Shown piece after piece: positions 1,567 through 19,930 of a stretch of DNA of 24,739 bases. Positions within the stretch are counted from its first letter, which is position 1; every line of letters starts with the position of its first letter. Location: IMG/VR virus record IMGVR_UViG_3300050821_007058, positions 1 to 24,739 of that record; one strand, given 5' to 3'. This DNA is from a virus. The notes beneath the pieces were generated by a model, which was given only the letters and a program-made list of their open reading frames with translations, was not told the origin of the DNA and did no database searches. A program made the position numbers and the translations under genes.

Positions 1567-1896
1567 TTACAAGCTTAAATTAATCCATTCTGCTTTATTA
1601 TTTAAAAATCCCGCCAATATCCATAAAGTTTTGCTCGATTTATCAAACCAAAACTGACCCACCTGATATGAAATATCGGATTCTTTAGGAATTCTAATAC
1701 TTACAATACATCTTGCGTCTGAATAGTTTTGTAAAGAATATCCATAAGAAGGATTCAAATATTGTTGTTTTTTTGGAGTACCCTCTACTGATTTTGTATG
1801 TTCTTGTTCTTCTAGAAGACGCTTAGATTCCTCTTCTCTTCTTTTTTTACCTCTTCTTGCAATTATTCCCGCACAAAGAGCTGCTACATTAATCAT
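1567..1896 (-). CDS. Small protein with charged helix and fibre-like C-terminal module
   Basis: 109 residues, function not recognised. A short hydrophobic N terminus (about residues 2-13) is followed by a very basic/acidic helix (RRGKKRREEESKRLLEEQ). The last 35 residues contain VGQFWFDKSSKTLWIL and then NKAEWINLSL. This module matches the pattern near the N terminus of the fibre genes at 11672-13387 (VGTIW-like, then NQATWVEF) and 18464-19267 (IGTIWIYSAT, then NSANWQLL). It may therefore be a virion protein of the portal/tail region carrying a fibre-type beta module. AAAGGA lies 8 bases before the ATG. It is the first minus-strand gene before the portal and is divergent from the plus island starting at 1973. 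Gene call good; role open. Confidence 0.65.
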   Translation of the reverse strand: MINVAALCAGIIARRGKKRREEESKRLLEEQEHTKSVEGTPKKQQYLNPSYGYSLQNYSDARCIVSIRIPKESDISYQVGQFWFDKSSKTLWILAGFLNNKAEWINLSL

Positions 1897-2685: not shown

Positions 2686-3047
2686 TGCCTACGGTTAGAT
2701 TTATTATAGTTGATGAAGATGATATTAAACGTGGTAAAGGAATCGCTAATTTTACATATAGGGGTCAAAGTCTTGAATTCAAGCATGGAGAAGTATATCG
2801 TTTATGGCCCGATTTGATAGCGTATATAGAAGCACAGTGTCTTCACTATATTAATAATAATGATGAAATGTGTTGGGAACAAAGATATTACTTTGAGCCC
2901 GAAGAAGATTTTTGCTTTAGTAATCCACAGTGCTTTAAAGAACATAAATGTAAAAGTTATTGGAAGCATAAAAAAACGGGACACATAGTAGAAGACGGCG
3001 ATTTGGTGCCTATAATGGAACATAATAATTATGAGAAGGTAAAATGA
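2685..3047 (+). CDS. Hypothetical protein, 120 residues
   Basis: Not recognised. I chose ATG at 2685 (MPTVRFIIVDEDD) because AGGAAG lies 6 bases upstream and the start overlaps the stop of the membrane peptide. The alternative ATG at 2622 would read through that peptide in another frame and has no clear binding site. The N-terminal third is beta-like (VRFIIVDEDD, FTYRGQSLEFKHGEVYRLW). The C-terminal half holds four cysteines, one near WEQRYYFEPEEDFCFSNPQC and others in CFKEHKCKSYW, suggesting metal binding or a disulfide-free knuckle. Its last bases overlap the next start (ATGA at 3044). Confidence 0.65.
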   Translation: MPTVRFIIVDEDDIKRGKGIANFTYRGQSLEFKHGEVYRLWPDLIAYIEAQCLHYINNNDEMCWEQRYYFEPEEDFCFSNPQCFKEHKCKSYWKHKKTGHIVEDGDLVPIMEHNNYEKVK

Positions 3048-3262
3048 AGATAGTAAAGCTGGATGCACTGGGAAGAATACCACTAAAGAAAGTATTAGAT
3101 AATATAGATGAATATGAATACTTCAAAGTTATAACAAAAAACGGTGTAATACTTATGTCACCCATTGGAAATGAACAAGATGAATTACGCTTAGGGATGC
3201 TGGAAGCTGAAGTAGAAATGAATGAATTGGAAGTTGAACTCAAAGCCAAAGGCGAATTATAA
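3044..3262 (+). CDS. Possible AbrB/SpoVT-like small DNA-binding protein
   Basis: 72 residues. The first 45 (MKIVKLDALGRIPLKKVLDN, then YFKVITKNGVILMSPIG) follow the swapped-hairpin AbrB pattern: a beta strand, the GRI/IP turn, a short helix, then two strands around N-G. The Pro sits one place off the usual I-P and the start is short, so the fit is imperfect. The last 25 residues form a strongly acidic helix (MLEAEVEMNELEVELKAK), probably a coiled coil that could dimerise the protein. It overlaps both neighbours by 1-4 bases. If the domain call holds, it would be a transcription regulator or antitoxin-like protein of the island. No toxin is recognised beside it. Confidence 0.6.
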   Translation: MKIVKLDALGRIPLKKVLDNIDEYEYFKVITKNGVILMSPIGNEQDELRLGMLEAEVEMNELEVELKAKGEL

Positions 3263-3420
3263 TGAATAGTCTTGAGGAATTAGTTAACGATATGTTATTA
3301 AAGAATCCTAAGACAAGCGATAAGGCAAAGTTTTTATTATACATTGCAGTATTATCCCAGGCAGTAGAAGAAGGTAAGTTAGATAAACAGACTCTAAAAA
3401 CAATAATTGATTTTATTTAA
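3262..3420 (+). CDS. Small helical protein, last gene of the plus island
   Basis: 52 residues (MNSLEELVNDMLLKNPKTSD, ending TIIDFI), not recognised. Its ATG overlaps the previous TAA (TAATG at 3260-3264). Composition points to two or three amphipathic helices. It ends directly before a strong hairpin (3423-3456), so it closes the transcription unit. No cysteines or membrane segment. Confidence 0.55.
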   Translation: MNSLEELVNDMLLKNPKTSDKAKFLLYIAVLSQAVEEGKLDKQTLKTIIDFI

Positions 3421-3422
3421 TA

Positions 3423-3456
3423 AAACACGGCCCCGGTTGAAGGCAGAGCCGTGTTT
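3423..3456. terminator. Bidirectional hairpin terminator between convergent operons
   Basis: AAACACGGC (3423-3431) pairs perfectly with GCCGTGTTT (3448-3456) around a 16-base loop. In minus-strand RNA the stem is followed by TTTTATT, a fair U-tract; in plus-strand RNA only GTGTTTGG follows. It sits between the end of the plus island (3420) and the end of the long minus operon (3573), so it probably stops both. The remaining 3457-3572 holds nothing I recognise. Confidence 0.7.
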
Positions 3457-3572
3457 GGTATTAGCTTTATATCTGACCTATTAGCTTGGAATAATTAGTT
3501 ACTATGGGTTGCAGTCAATCTATTTTTTTATTTGTGTGTTTATTGATCAACCGAAAATAACTTGTCGGTATC

Positions 3573-3935
3573 TTAGACTTTTTTATCTTCCATTGCAAGA
3601 CATTTATTACCACATAAATATGGATCTTTGCACATAGTTGTAACTTTAATTTCATTAAGATTGCGATCAACGGTAAATGTTCTTATAGTCTTATCCGGAT
3701 CCCATACAAAACATACTGATTTAATGCATGTAAACGGATCAAGGCAATCAAATGCATGTGGCTTTAGACCTTTTAGCTGCATTTGGTTCCATTGGTTATC
3801 AAAGGCTTTGTTTACACGCTTACGGGTTTCGGTTGCTCTTTCATCTTCGGTAACCATAAAGTTTGTTGCCGATACTGTTGGGGGCAGTGGCTTTACACCT
3901 ATTGTTGCAAGAGCTTGTTTAATTTTCTTGAACAT
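3573..3935 (-). CDS. Small protein with two matching C-x-D-P cysteine clusters
   Basis: 120 residues, not recognised; last gene of the minus operon. AGGAG lies 6 bases before the ATG. The N-terminal 60 residues are basic and helical. The C-terminal half holds two similar clusters: C64-LDPFT-C70-IKSV-C75 and C102-KDPYL-C108-GNK-C112, separated by a beta-like stretch with FVWDPDKTIRTFTV. Each has Cys, one residue, Asp-Pro, an aromatic residue, then Cys. Six cysteines in two matching clusters suggest metal binding or two disulfide-knotted lobes. No known zinc ribbon (CxxC) is present. Confidence 0.65.
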   Translation of the reverse strand: MFKKIKQALATIGVKPLPPTVSATNFMVTEDERATETRKRVNKAFDNQWNQMQLKGLKPHAFDCLDPFTCIKSVCFVWDPDKTIRTFTVDRNLNEIKVTTMCKDPYLCGNKCLAMEDKKV

Positions 3936-3944
3936 TGGGTTCTC

Positions 3945-4532
3945 CTAATCTTTATACGACCTAGTAGGTAAAGACCTTCCAAATGGGGCAGAATCAAGCT
4001 CGGTCCAAGTCTCTTTTCTAAAGTTTATATATCGCATTACAAGTTCTTCGTGTTCTTCGTTATAAATAATGGCCCATCCCTCACCTTCACCTATTTCTTG
4101 TATTTCACCCAATTTAATCAATTCCAAAACCTTCTTATGGTCCTCGTGCCTATCTAATAAATAGCCATTGGATTCTTTATCAATTGTTCTTTTTACTTTT
4201 GATTCATCAATCTCGTAAATATCTTCTTCCTTGATTGGTGTATCATCAAAATCAACTGACATTAGTACCATGCTATCTATTGTAGGGTGCCATAGGGGAT
4301 AATACGCATCCTCATCATCACTTGCCTTAAATTCTTCGATTTGTTTATCATGCCTTTCTTTCTCTTCAATAAGCTTATCTATAACATGATTAACTTGTTT
4401 AATCTTTTCTTCTTGTTCTTCTTTGCTAAATGGAACAGCATCGATAATAAACTTTTCACCGCCTATATTCAGTTCCCAACCAAACCTATTCATCATAAGT
4501 TTATCGAATAATTGCTTTTTAATTTCTTCCAT
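3945..4532 (-). CDS. Acidic hypothetical protein with coiled coil
   Basis: 195 residues, not recognised. GGAG lies 4 bases before ATG 4532, and the start overlaps the end of the upstream gene by 14 bases. Residues about 34-68 (KEEQEEKIKQVNHVIDKLIE and onward) form a long charged helix, probably a coiled coil. The following 130 residues are acidic and mixed (DDEDAYYPLWHPTIDSMVLM; later EGEGWAIIYNEEHEELVMRY). No catalytic motif stands out. Its position downstream of the large terminase does not by itself say what it does. Confidence 0.65.
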   Translation of the reverse strand: MEEIKKQLFDKLMMNRFGWELNIGGEKFIIDAVPFSKEEQEEKIKQVNHVIDKLIEEKERHDKQIEEFKASDDEDAYYPLWHPTIDSMVLMSVDFDDTPIKEEDIYEIDESKVKRTIDKESNGYLLDRHEDHKKVLELIKLGEIQEIGEGEGWAIIYNEEHEELVMRYINFRKETWTELDSAPFGRSLPTRSYKD

Positions 4533-4731
4533 TTAACTCCAAATACGGTAATGCGTACTTTTCTTCACACCAGTAATGATTATCAGCTTGTACTATCCAA
4601 AACTTTGCGTAAGGAGCATCATTATTTCTTCCATCTCCTGATTTAACACCAAGTTTTTGCCAATCTATTTGATTATAGTTACCTAAATCATACATTGTTG
4701 TATTACGTTTTTCACAGTATTCTTTATTCAT
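4519..4731 (-). CDS. Small hypothetical protein, 70 residues
   Basis: Not recognised. Three starts are possible in frame: GTG 4743, ATG 4737 and ATG 4731. I prefer 4731 because GAGG lies 7 bases before it, giving MNKEYCEKRNTTMYDLGNYN. Rich in Trp, Tyr and Asn (WQKLGVKSGDG, KFWIVQADNHYWC), with two Cys. A compact beta domain seems likely. The start overlaps the upstream gene by 8 bases and the end overlaps the next gene by 14. Confidence 0.6.
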   Translation of the reverse strand: MNKEYCEKRNTTMYDLGNYNQIDWQKLGVKSGDGRNNDAPYAKFWIVQADNHYWCEEKYALPYLELNGRN

Positions 4732-4924
4732 TTTCATCCTCACAGTTTAATTCATATTGTTGCATTCTAGCCATTCTTTGTTCTTCAATCAATCTTTCAA
4801 TCATGCATTTTTGTGCAGACAATCTAAGCCTTTCACATCTGAATGCATAGACCATCAAAAAGAATGGGACAGCAAAGAGTAATATAATAGTTAAAATAAG
4901 TTTAAAGAATTTATTGTTTGGCAC
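4724..4924 (-). CDS. Small membrane protein with helical tail, GTG start
   Basis: 66 residues from GTG at 4924, read as MPNNKFFKLILTIILLFAVP. AGGAG overlaps the terminase stop codon and lies 4 bases before the GTG; the in-frame reading from 5005 would lie mostly inside the terminase gene. A transmembrane helix covers about residues 8-29. The rest is a charged helix (RCERLRLSAQK, then IERLIEEQRMARMQQYEL) ending acidic. The architecture resembles small phage inner-membrane proteins such as spanin-type or holin-accessory proteins, but length and lack of a second gene do not allow a lysis call. An ATG two bases upstream of the GTG in another frame gives only 11 codons. Confidence 0.55.
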   Translation of the reverse strand: MPNNKFFKLILTIILLFAVPFFLMVYAFRCERLRLSAQKCMIERLIEEQRMARMQQYELNCEDENE

Positions 4925-4931
4925 ATTTCTC

Positions 4932-6329
4932 CTAGTAATTTGGTAAATCATTCCTGAAAATTGAAGGGAGATGGCTTTGATCGCCACCATACCTAGCCTG
5001 TGCATATTTCTTATTCAAATCCTCGGCTGAAGAACCTTCTTTTATCTTTGGAAGGGATAGACAGAGGTATCTGAGGGCGTCACAAATGTGAGAATTGTCG
5101 TCGTGTAAAGGTTTATTGTTATATGTTTTCTTTTCAGAATTATATTCTTTTCGATAGTTTCGCAACGCAGCTATTAAAGTTCTACAACGTTGTTGATCGA
5201 TATGTATTCTGGGAAGTGTAGTGCGAACTGCTTCTATACCATCAATTATTGATAAATGCGGTGCATGGGTAAATCTGAACCCTAACTGTGCTGCTTTTTG
5301 CATTCGGGTTAAACCGCCAGCCGTAAAATCCCTAACTTCAACATCATGTGGAGCAATATGTTTTCCCCAAGTATAAGGTTTTGCTTGAAGAACATTTATA
5401 TAATGCTCAAGTCCAACATCTGAATTTGTATACATATCTATTATATAAATTGAATTTCCACAAACTTGAAACATCAATATACAAGTCATATCAGACATAC
5501 CTAAATCCCATGCACTGTGTACTTTCAAATTAGGCTGCCAATCTACAATACCAACCTGGTTATTAAGCTCCATGTTAATCAAGTATTTACTATAGTAAGA
5601 GCCCAGAGCACCAATAGAAAAATCACAATAATATTCTTGCTGTGCCATATCAGGGGATATTTCACCAGATTCTATTTCATTTTGTATTTGTTCTTCTGAA
5701 ATATGTTCTGTTTCTCTTACCGTAAAATACTGATAAAACCATTCTTCAGGGTTTGATTTTGCTATTTCATAGAGCTTAAAAAAATGATTTTCTCCGAACG
5801 GTGTAGATACAAACAACGCAAAGCCACCGTTACCGGCTAACACAGGTCTTAGTGTGGGATACGCTTGAGGATGCTGGTATGCATATTCTGAAAATACAAC
5901 TCCGACAGGGTTTGTACCACGAAGAGCATCGTAATCATTGCTACCACAAAACTGTATGATTGAACCATTAACGAGATTTATTTTCATTTGAGCTATGTTT
6001 GTTCCTGTGATCAATTCAGGGGGAATATAGTCCATTATACGTTGGCCATCTATTGTAATTCCATCAAACATAACACGTCTAGCCTGTACAGCCGTTGGGA
6101 GTAAATAGTAATACAGGCCTACACGTTTTAAAGCTGCACGTAGAATAAGATTAAATGCACAAATATCTTTACCTGCTCGTCTCGGCCAAACAAGCAAATA
6201 TCGTGTGTATTTTGAAGAATTAAAGGCTTCAATAAGGGGACGTTGGTAATCACGAGCCACAAACTTATTCAGGTGTATCTTAGTCTCAACTTTCACTAAA
6301 GCTCCAACTTCTTTTATCAGCCTGTACAT
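4932..6329 (-). CDS. terL: Terminase large subunit
   Basis: 465 residues; the ATPase/nuclease that cuts concatemeric DNA and pumps it through the portal. Walker A is WPRRAGKD (residues 48-55). The Walker B-like strand is VGVVFSEYA (142-150), with Glu148 as catalytic acid and Ser in place of the usual Asp. The coupling motif is STP (175-177). The RNase H-like nuclease acids are probably Asp275 (SAWDLG), Asp329 (PHDVE) and Asp417 (ICDALRYL). The length is normal for the family. Two starts fit: ATG 6329 (poor binding site) and GTG 6296 with GGAG 5 bases upstream; the second would remove 11 residues and is a serious alternative. The gene overlaps the one before it by 44 bases if ATG 6329 is used. 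Confidence 0.93.
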   Translation of the reverse strand: MYRLIKEVGALVKVETKIHLNKFVARDYQRPLIEAFNSSKYTRYLLVWPRRAGKDICAFNLILRAALKRVGLYYYLLPTAVQARRVMFDGITIDGQRIMDYIPPELITGTNIAQMKINLVNGSIIQFCGSNDYDALRGTNPVGVVFSEYAYQHPQAYPTLRPVLAGNGGFALFVSTPFGENHFFKLYEIAKSNPEEWFYQYFTVRETEHISEEQIQNEIESGEISPDMAQQEYYCDFSIGALGSYYSKYLINMELNNQVGIVDWQPNLKVHSAWDLGMSDMTCILMFQVCGNSIYIIDMYTNSDVGLEHYINVLQAKPYTWGKHIAPHDVEVRDFTAGGLTRMQKAAQLGFRFTHAPHLSIIDGIEAVRTTLPRIHIDQQRCRTLIAALRNYRKEYNSEKKTYNNKPLHDDNSHICDALRYLCLSLPKIKEGSSAEDLNKKYAQARYGGDQSHLPSIFRNDLPNY

Positions 6330-19339: not shown

Positions 19340-19375
19340 TTGACTTATGTAAAACAATCATGTACAATTGTACAT
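19340..19375 (+). promoter_or_regulatory. Promoter with overlapping palindromic operator of the RHH cassette
   Basis: TTGACT (19340-19345), 17-base spacer, TACAAT (19363-19368). A perfect 16-base palindrome ATGTACAATTGTACAT (19360-19375) covers the -10 box. The first gene of the unit encodes a small RHH protein, whose dimers typically bind such sites, so autorepression is the simple reading. No comparably good leftward promoter for the fibre gene at 19267 is visible in 19268-19394. Confidence 0.75.
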
Positions 19376-19394
19376 ATGCACATAAGGAGAAATA

Positions 19395-19550
19395 ATGGAT
19401 AACCCGACAAAGAAAAGATTATCGGTAGATTTACACTGGGAATTTCATCAGGCATTAAAAGAGATTGCATTAAAGCATAATATGACAGTTACACAAATAG
19501 TTGAGGGAATGGTTATACAGTTGATCAAACAAGAAAATATGGTGAATTAA
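19395..19550 (+). CDS. Ribbon-helix-helix repressor-like protein
   Basis: 51 residues: KKRLSVDLHWEFHQALKEIA is the beta strand and first helix, LKHNMTVTQIVEGMVIQLIK the turn and second helix of an RHH domain (CopG/Arc-type). Such proteins act as dimers and insert a paired strand into the DNA major groove. AAGGAG lies 6 bases before ATG 19395. The palindrome over its own promoter is a fitting target. Its last codons (IKQENMVN) are duplicated downstream at 19828-19857. It probably keeps the following lipoprotein gene low or conditionally expressed. Confidence 0.8.
   Translation: MDNPTKKRLSVDLHWEFHQALKEIALKHNMTVTQIVEGMVIQLIKQENMVN
19523..19550 (+). repeat. Direct repeat, copy 1
   Basis: 28 bases at the 3' end of the RHH gene. 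Copy 2 at 19830-19857 matches 26 of the 28. The two copies bracket the lipoprotein gene. Confidence 0.85.
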
Positions 19551-19555
19551 AAATA

Positions 19556-19831
19556 ATGATTAAATTGTTATATTTTTGTTTTTTAATTTTACTTTTAGGA
19601 TGCATGCCCTCTAAAAATACTTTTCACGTTAATGCAATCTTATTAGGACAAACTGTGTCAATGTCAGGAAGATATGGTGAATTTAGAAACCATATAACTA
19701 TATGGGACTGTGGAAAATATGGAGTTATGGTAAGTGAAAATAAATATGTTTTTAAAAAATGTAAACAAGCTACCAAATTAATAGTTGCAGATTATGGGGA
19801 TCACTTAGAAATTGAAGGTATAATCACATGA
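19556..19831 (+). CDS. Phage-encoded lipoprotein
   Basis: 91 residues. The signal peptide MIKLLYFCFLILLLGCMPSK has a lipobox L-L-G-C with the lipidated Cys at 16 and Met at +2, which in enteric bacteria favours the outer membrane. The mature part (about 76 residues) looks like a small beta barrel (AILLGQTVSMSGRYG, HITIWDCGKYGVMV, GDHLEIEGIIT), possibly OB-like, with two Cys that could form a disulfide. Phage lipoproteins of this size (such as T5 Llp or Cor-like proteins) block the phage receptor and prevent superinfection; that role is proposed here by analogy only. The start at 19556 has only a weak binding site (GGTG). Confidence 0.7.
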   Translation: MIKLLYFCFLILLLGCMPSKNTFHVNAILLGQTVSMSGRYGEFRNHITIWDCGKYGVMVSENKYVFKKCKQATKLIVADYGDHLEIEGIIT

Positions 19832-19857
19832 TTAAACAAGAGAATATGGTGAATTAA
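19828..19857 (+). pseudogene. Fragment copying the 3' end of the RHH gene
   Basis: ATG at 19828 overlaps the lipoprotein stop and reads MIKQENMVN then TAA. It repeats the last nine codons of the RHH gene almost exactly (direct repeat copy 2 is 19830-19857). This is best read as the remnant of a duplication or recombination event, though a nine-codon translated relay to the next small ORF is possible. Confidence 0.6.
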
Positions 19858-19858
19858 G

Positions 19859-19930
19859 ATGTGCTGTTTAGATTTTATAGCCTTTGTTGTTATAGGTGCA
19901 ACTATTTTAGACTGGTTGGATGGTCTATAA
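19859..19930 (+). CDS. Possible 23-residue hydrophobic peptide
   Basis: MCCLDFIAFVVIGATILDWL then DGL. A hydrophobic helix fills most of it, with two N-terminal cysteines. The GGTG binding site is weak and its end overlaps the convergent ejection gene by 6 bases. It could be a membrane peptide of the cassette or chance. Confidence 0.3.
   Translation: MCCLDFIAFVVIGATILDWLDGL

Follow-up and report, generated by a model that had tools for sequence, protein, structure and literature searches.

The DNA under study (hereafter the window) is an entire IMG/VR record of 24.7 kb that encodes a P22-type portal, as do 19/20 of the records surveyed overall. Between two minus-strand genes, one for an ejection-type and one for a fibre-type protein (roles assigned from position, size and repeats, without family matches), the window carries on its plus strand the genes of an RHH protein and of a predicted lipoprotein (Table 1). 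The positions and strands of the open reading frames (ORFs) thus bear out the original prediction of an antisense RHH-lipoprotein cassette between ejection and fibre genes, although the stretch 19340-19930 appears, by comparison with related phages, to be part of a larger conserved antisense slot. The late strand of the window contains no gene, neither arc nor ant, between the start of the RHH gene and that of the fibre gene.

Table 1. Features of the antisense cassette and of its flanks, with positions in the window.
Feature	Positions	Strand	Remarks
Sigma-70-type promoter, TTGACT-17 nt-TACAAT	19340-19368	+	matches 10/12
Candidate operator, perfect 16-nt palindrome ATGTACAATTGTACAT	19360-19375		over the -10 hexamer (19363-19368)
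RHH gene, putative repressor, 51 aa	19395-19550	+	KRLxxD beta-strand; AAGGAG ribosome site
Direct repeat, copy 1	19507-19550	+	3' end of the RHH gene
Predicted lipoprotein, 91 aa	19556-19831	+	mature part C16-T91; two further Cys
Direct repeat, copy 2	19814-19857	+	after the lipoprotein; reads MIKQENMVN-stop
Micropeptide, 23 aa, MCCLDFIAFVVIGATILDWLDGL	19859-19930	+	single transmembrane (TM) segment; stop overlaps that of the ejection-type gene
Flank: ejection-type protein gene, 648 aa	19925-21871	-	role by position
Flank: fibre-type protein gene, 267 aa	18464-19267	-	role by position and repeats

The RHH fold of the 51-aa protein is a firm prediction: its AlphaFold monomer model reached a pLDDT of 89.9, the Foldseek neighbours of this model were ParG, AmrZ, CopG and Arc, and profile matches in the PDB were to ParG, ORF56, the omega repressor and RHH antitoxins. 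A specific kinship to Arc or Mnt was looked for by profile but could not be shown. With the RHH/CopG/Arc repressors in general (ParG, CopG, Arc, Mnt) the protein shares fold, size, beta-strand motif and a small palindromic operator, but a TGTAYA-tt-TRTACA site held in a fixed -10 register was seen here only in the present group.

This site is the perfect palindrome that had been reported over the -10 hexamer of the RHH gene's own promoter, where it was indeed found. It is the sole perfect palindrome of at least 14 nt in the window; a random window would have about 0.64 perfect palindromes of at least 16 nt, so that finding one is no surprise in itself, and what stands out in the sequence comparison is that it covers the -10 and returns in relatives. 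The promoters of the window and of the loci L012, L013 and L030 all display TGTAYA-2 bases-TRTACA with the -10 hexamer at an identical offset, and in each of the four the promoter site has no second match. One extra site of this type was seen within a flank of L048, whereas 217 kb of other loci contained none. In L002 the half-sites are repeated, with TTTGTACATAT occurring twice at a distance of 18 nt. The RHH proteins of operator-bearing loci have an RLxxD beta-strand in common, which is missing from those of L048 and L038; no TGTAYA operator was found in the RHH promoters of these two loci or of L040. Recurrence of the predicted operator in the same -10 register, in four phages whose RHH proteins are divergent, supports on comparative grounds the self-regulation proposed at the outset, and the RHH protein probably represses its own gene through this palindrome.

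The lipoprotein ORF is predicted to be a gene mainly on account of its start position (5 nt past the RHH stop), its signal peptide and a flanking repeat. The hydrophobic signal ends in Gly-Cys, and the predicted lipobox LLLGC (residues 12-16) agrees with the classical PS00013-type pattern, whereas its Leu at -2 conflicts with two stricter ones; the word 'clear', originally applied to it, therefore seems a little strong. As had been noted, the mature domain is not a recognisable one: no useful relative of the lipoprotein was obtained from viral contigs, phage records, Pfam, PHROGs, PADLOC or the PDB. The sole match in genome_contigs, L003, is spurious (antisense to dxs). A single-sequence AlphaFold model of the mature part is all-beta and of low confidence (pLDDT 57.7), and the Foldseek matches of this model carried no meaning. 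Another RHH-led slot, that of L032, likewise contains a predicted lipoprotein (1579-1851, minus strand; LLLPSFISC), which is unrelated to that of the window.

The flanking repeat consists of 44 nt of the RHH 3' end, which recur at 80% identity directly after the lipoprotein gene and ahead of the micropeptide. This duplicated end around the lipoprotein is likely an insertion scar, and the 23-aa peptide that follows can be taken as the window's counterpart of the terminal TM micropeptides of related phages (see below). The slot of L040 holds just an RHH gene and a micropeptide, and, most simply, a cassette of this kind would be the older state, into which the lipoprotein gene was inserted. Alternatively, the lipoprotein ORF may not be a gene, and the real cassette would then comprise, as in L040, only RHH and micropeptide. 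Besides the example of L040, the failure to find a homologue agrees with this alternative, as does the length of the ORF, which at 91 aa is marginally longer than chance in so AT-rich a slot (P ~0.04 by shuffling); yet the close spacing behind the RHH stop, the signal ending in Gly-Cys, the two further Cys and a repeat that flanks exactly this ORF make it very improbable indeed.

Relatives of the window were collected by a scan with the family of a nearby 118-aa protein, which gave 40 loci, and the slot was compared in 25 records (the window and 24 relatives) whose gap between the ejection-type and the fibre-type gene had definable limits. It is coded antisense in all 25, with a mean ORF coverage of 0.65 antisense versus 0.05 sense; since gaps free of long sense ORFs were picked by eye as slots, the low sense coverage is partly built in, which does not apply to the antisense coverage. 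Control gaps, between the fibre gene and a 110-aa gene, were coded antisense in 0/17. A recognisable DNA-binding regulator leads about 15 of the 25 slots, RHH in about 11 and HTH_17-like in about four (Pfam-confirmed for L017), and no regulator was recognised in the remaining ~10/25. Slot genes are frequently TM-like (65/94, versus 14/123 other small genes), and the last of them encodes a one-helix TM peptide no longer than 60 aa in 20/25 slots; the window's own 23-aa micropeptide was left out of the counts by the ribosome-site rule. Between the ejection-type and fibre-type genes of L036 and L037 there is no slot, and in L020, L038, L042 and L049 the antisense unit adjoining the fibre gene holds a terminase gene, not small membrane genes.

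The content of the slot behind the regulator is variable. Most relatives have TM coiled-coil proteins or Cys-rich ones there instead of lipoproteins. L002, the closest relative found, has the same slot with an RHH protein 86% identical to that of the window, the compared flanking proteins being 29-75% identical, and behind it a 70-aa Cys-rich and a 52-aa TM protein that are unrelated to the window's cargo. Cargo that differs from phage to phage agrees with the status of moron assigned to the cassette. Conservation of the slot, the unrelated cargo of L002 and the inclusion of a terminal TM micropeptide in the cassette are, as far as sequences can tell, additions to the earlier picture. Some further peculiarities of these regions may be recorded: an SPFH/Band_7 protein (PHROG 200) is encoded in the antisense slots of L016 (1931-2788) and L017 (2244-3092); the slots of L022 and L034 each contain several small TM proteins, some with a common KDFHGRLCAIEE motif, and one member of these proteins had no relative in Pfam, PHROGs or phage records; and L002 has a tandem pair of fibre-type genes (2717-4833) with near-identical N-termini.

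The strong enrichment in TM proteins would also suit a lysis or envelope-disruption cassette, with an o-spanin-like lipoprotein, i-spanin- or holin-like TM proteins and the repressor as a clock. One slot protein of phage G007 has a weak XhlA match that does not reach the curated cut-off (E 1.3e-4). A search of 20 records for lysozyme and amidase families gave none, and no endolysin family appeared among the best 25 of 55 PHROG families in the large relatives G001, G010 and G007, which leaves room for a lysis role of the slot. However, the cassette runs opposite to the late-gene strand under a host-type promoter and its own repressor, no slot protein is endolysin-like, and a conserved TM protein adjoining the terminase gene (window 4724-4951 and L051 8362-8580, both on the minus strand) is another candidate for a lysis gene. 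A lysis function is, in our view, unlikely.

The orientation of the cassette, convergent with the ejection gene, could point to an antisense regulator island that controls late read-through from the ejection into the fibre genes, with the membrane products being secondary. Membrane-protein ORFs with ribosome sites fill the slot, however, which is beyond the needs of a read-through switch, and we regard this possibility as distinctly unlikely. Finally, the RHH protein and the membrane micropeptide might form a toxin-antitoxin or addiction pair, the former as antitoxin and repressor and the latter as toxin. RHH proteins of the relatives weakly match HicB- and TacA-like antitoxin families, and small membrane toxins resemble the terminal TM micropeptides in size. 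On the other hand, no toxin family was found, PADLOC returned nothing convincing and, to our knowledge, the partners of RHH antitoxins are cytoplasmic toxins, all of which renders such a pair highly unlikely.

A closer parallel is provided by the immI region of Salmonella phage P22, where the order in the sequence record is 16(+), sieA(-), orf59a(-), mnt(-), arc(+), ant(+), 9(+). In both cases the slot separates the last ejection gene from the tailspike or fibre gene, and it has an RHH repressor followed by membrane-protein genes, all read against the late genes; the membrane cargo adjoins the ejection gene and varies among relatives, and the phage has a P22-type portal. By contrast, the window cassette is devoid of arc, ant and sar, the relatives tested have no tyrosine integrase, and family searches detected neither a P22 similarity of the ejection and fibre proteins nor a relation to SieA of the predicted lipoprotein and TM micropeptide that occupy the position of sieA. 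Because arc and ant are absent from the late strand, the cassette may be said to work like immI rather than to be immI. The P22 region has been named the 'ant moron' and is in rapid flux (Villafane et al. 2008, PMC2629481); in phage L no more of it is left than a homologue of mnt and one short gene, orf62 (PMC8022706). The reduced immI of phage L resembles the slots considered here in combining an RHH repressor with a short gene of unknown function, although phage L is a temperate close relative of P22 and the present phages are far diverged.

With regard to the cargo, SieA blocks the gp16/gp20 ejection conduit, and Llp of phage T5 is a small exclusion lipoprotein whose gene adjoins that of the receptor-binding protein (PMC9586334). 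The predicted lipoprotein of the window shares with T5 Llp and T1-type Cor its small size and a location beside receptor-binding genes, but the searches made detected no sequence relation, and an RHH repressor is not described with those systems (PMC9586334). These comparisons with P22, SieA and Llp make exclusion the best guess for the function of the cargo; by analogy with the position of mnt-sieA in P22 and with T5 Llp, superinfection exclusion is plausible.

A lysogeny- or early-expressed moron had been envisaged, of which the moron part is upheld by the exchange of cargo and the lysogeny part is weakened: a tyrosine integrase was found in 0/20 records, some of which may be fragments. A serine recombinase was present in one of the 20, and Cro/XRE-like regulators occur in some relatives. 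Since no tyrosine integrase was found, there is maybe no lysogen to protect.

Taken together, we interpret the cassette, with moderate confidence, as an immI-like, autorepressed entry-exclusion island on the antisense strand of a P22-portal-type podovirus. What the sequences themselves show is a conserved antisense island, a repressor fold, an operator with its register to the -10, cargo that is exchanged and a duplicated RHH end. From these we infer that the sigma-70-type promoter would fire across the island against the direction of the late genes, and that a dimer of the RHH protein, the first product, would bind the palindrome over the -10 and shut its own promoter, so that the cassette would be expressed as an early limited pulse or constantly at a low level. 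The genes after the repressor would supply exchangeable envelope cargo, here the small, presumably lipidated lipoprotein and the 23-aa membrane micropeptide, whose likeliest job may be an envelope-level block of further phage entry, comparable to that of SieA or Llp. Against this immI-like interpretation we count a lipoprotein without homologue, with an ORF near chance length and Leu at -2, the missing arc and ant, an RHH protein with no specific tie to Arc or Mnt, lipoproteins not being the usual cargo, the lack of a tyrosine integrase in 20 records, and the ~10/25 slots without recognised regulator.

The immI/ant-moron slot has been described in the literature for enterobacterial P22-like phages and close relatives; new here, at the level of gene arrangement, appear to be the place, strand, order and autorepressor logic of immI in far-diverged environmental podoviruses, where the slots house numerous small membrane proteins unrelated to one another. 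These parallels suggest that the position beside the ejection genes has long served to house genes that act on the envelope and perhaps exclude entry, and the cargo of the slots constitutes a list of candidates for testing, in which the role of the terminal micropeptides is a question of its own. A more far-reaching view, possible but doubtful, is that a whole group of environmental podoviruses with P22-type portals, for the most part integrase-free, maintains the antisense autorepressed island beside its DNA-ejection genes as a dedicated, fast-exchanging entry-exclusion locus, usually with a terminal one-helix micropeptide that itself acts on the ejection conduit, and that immI of P22 is a temperate, specialised form of an older slot. 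Among the minor observations from the relatives, phage G007 also encodes a GroES (Cpn10)-like gene (L055, 9964-10239, plus strand).
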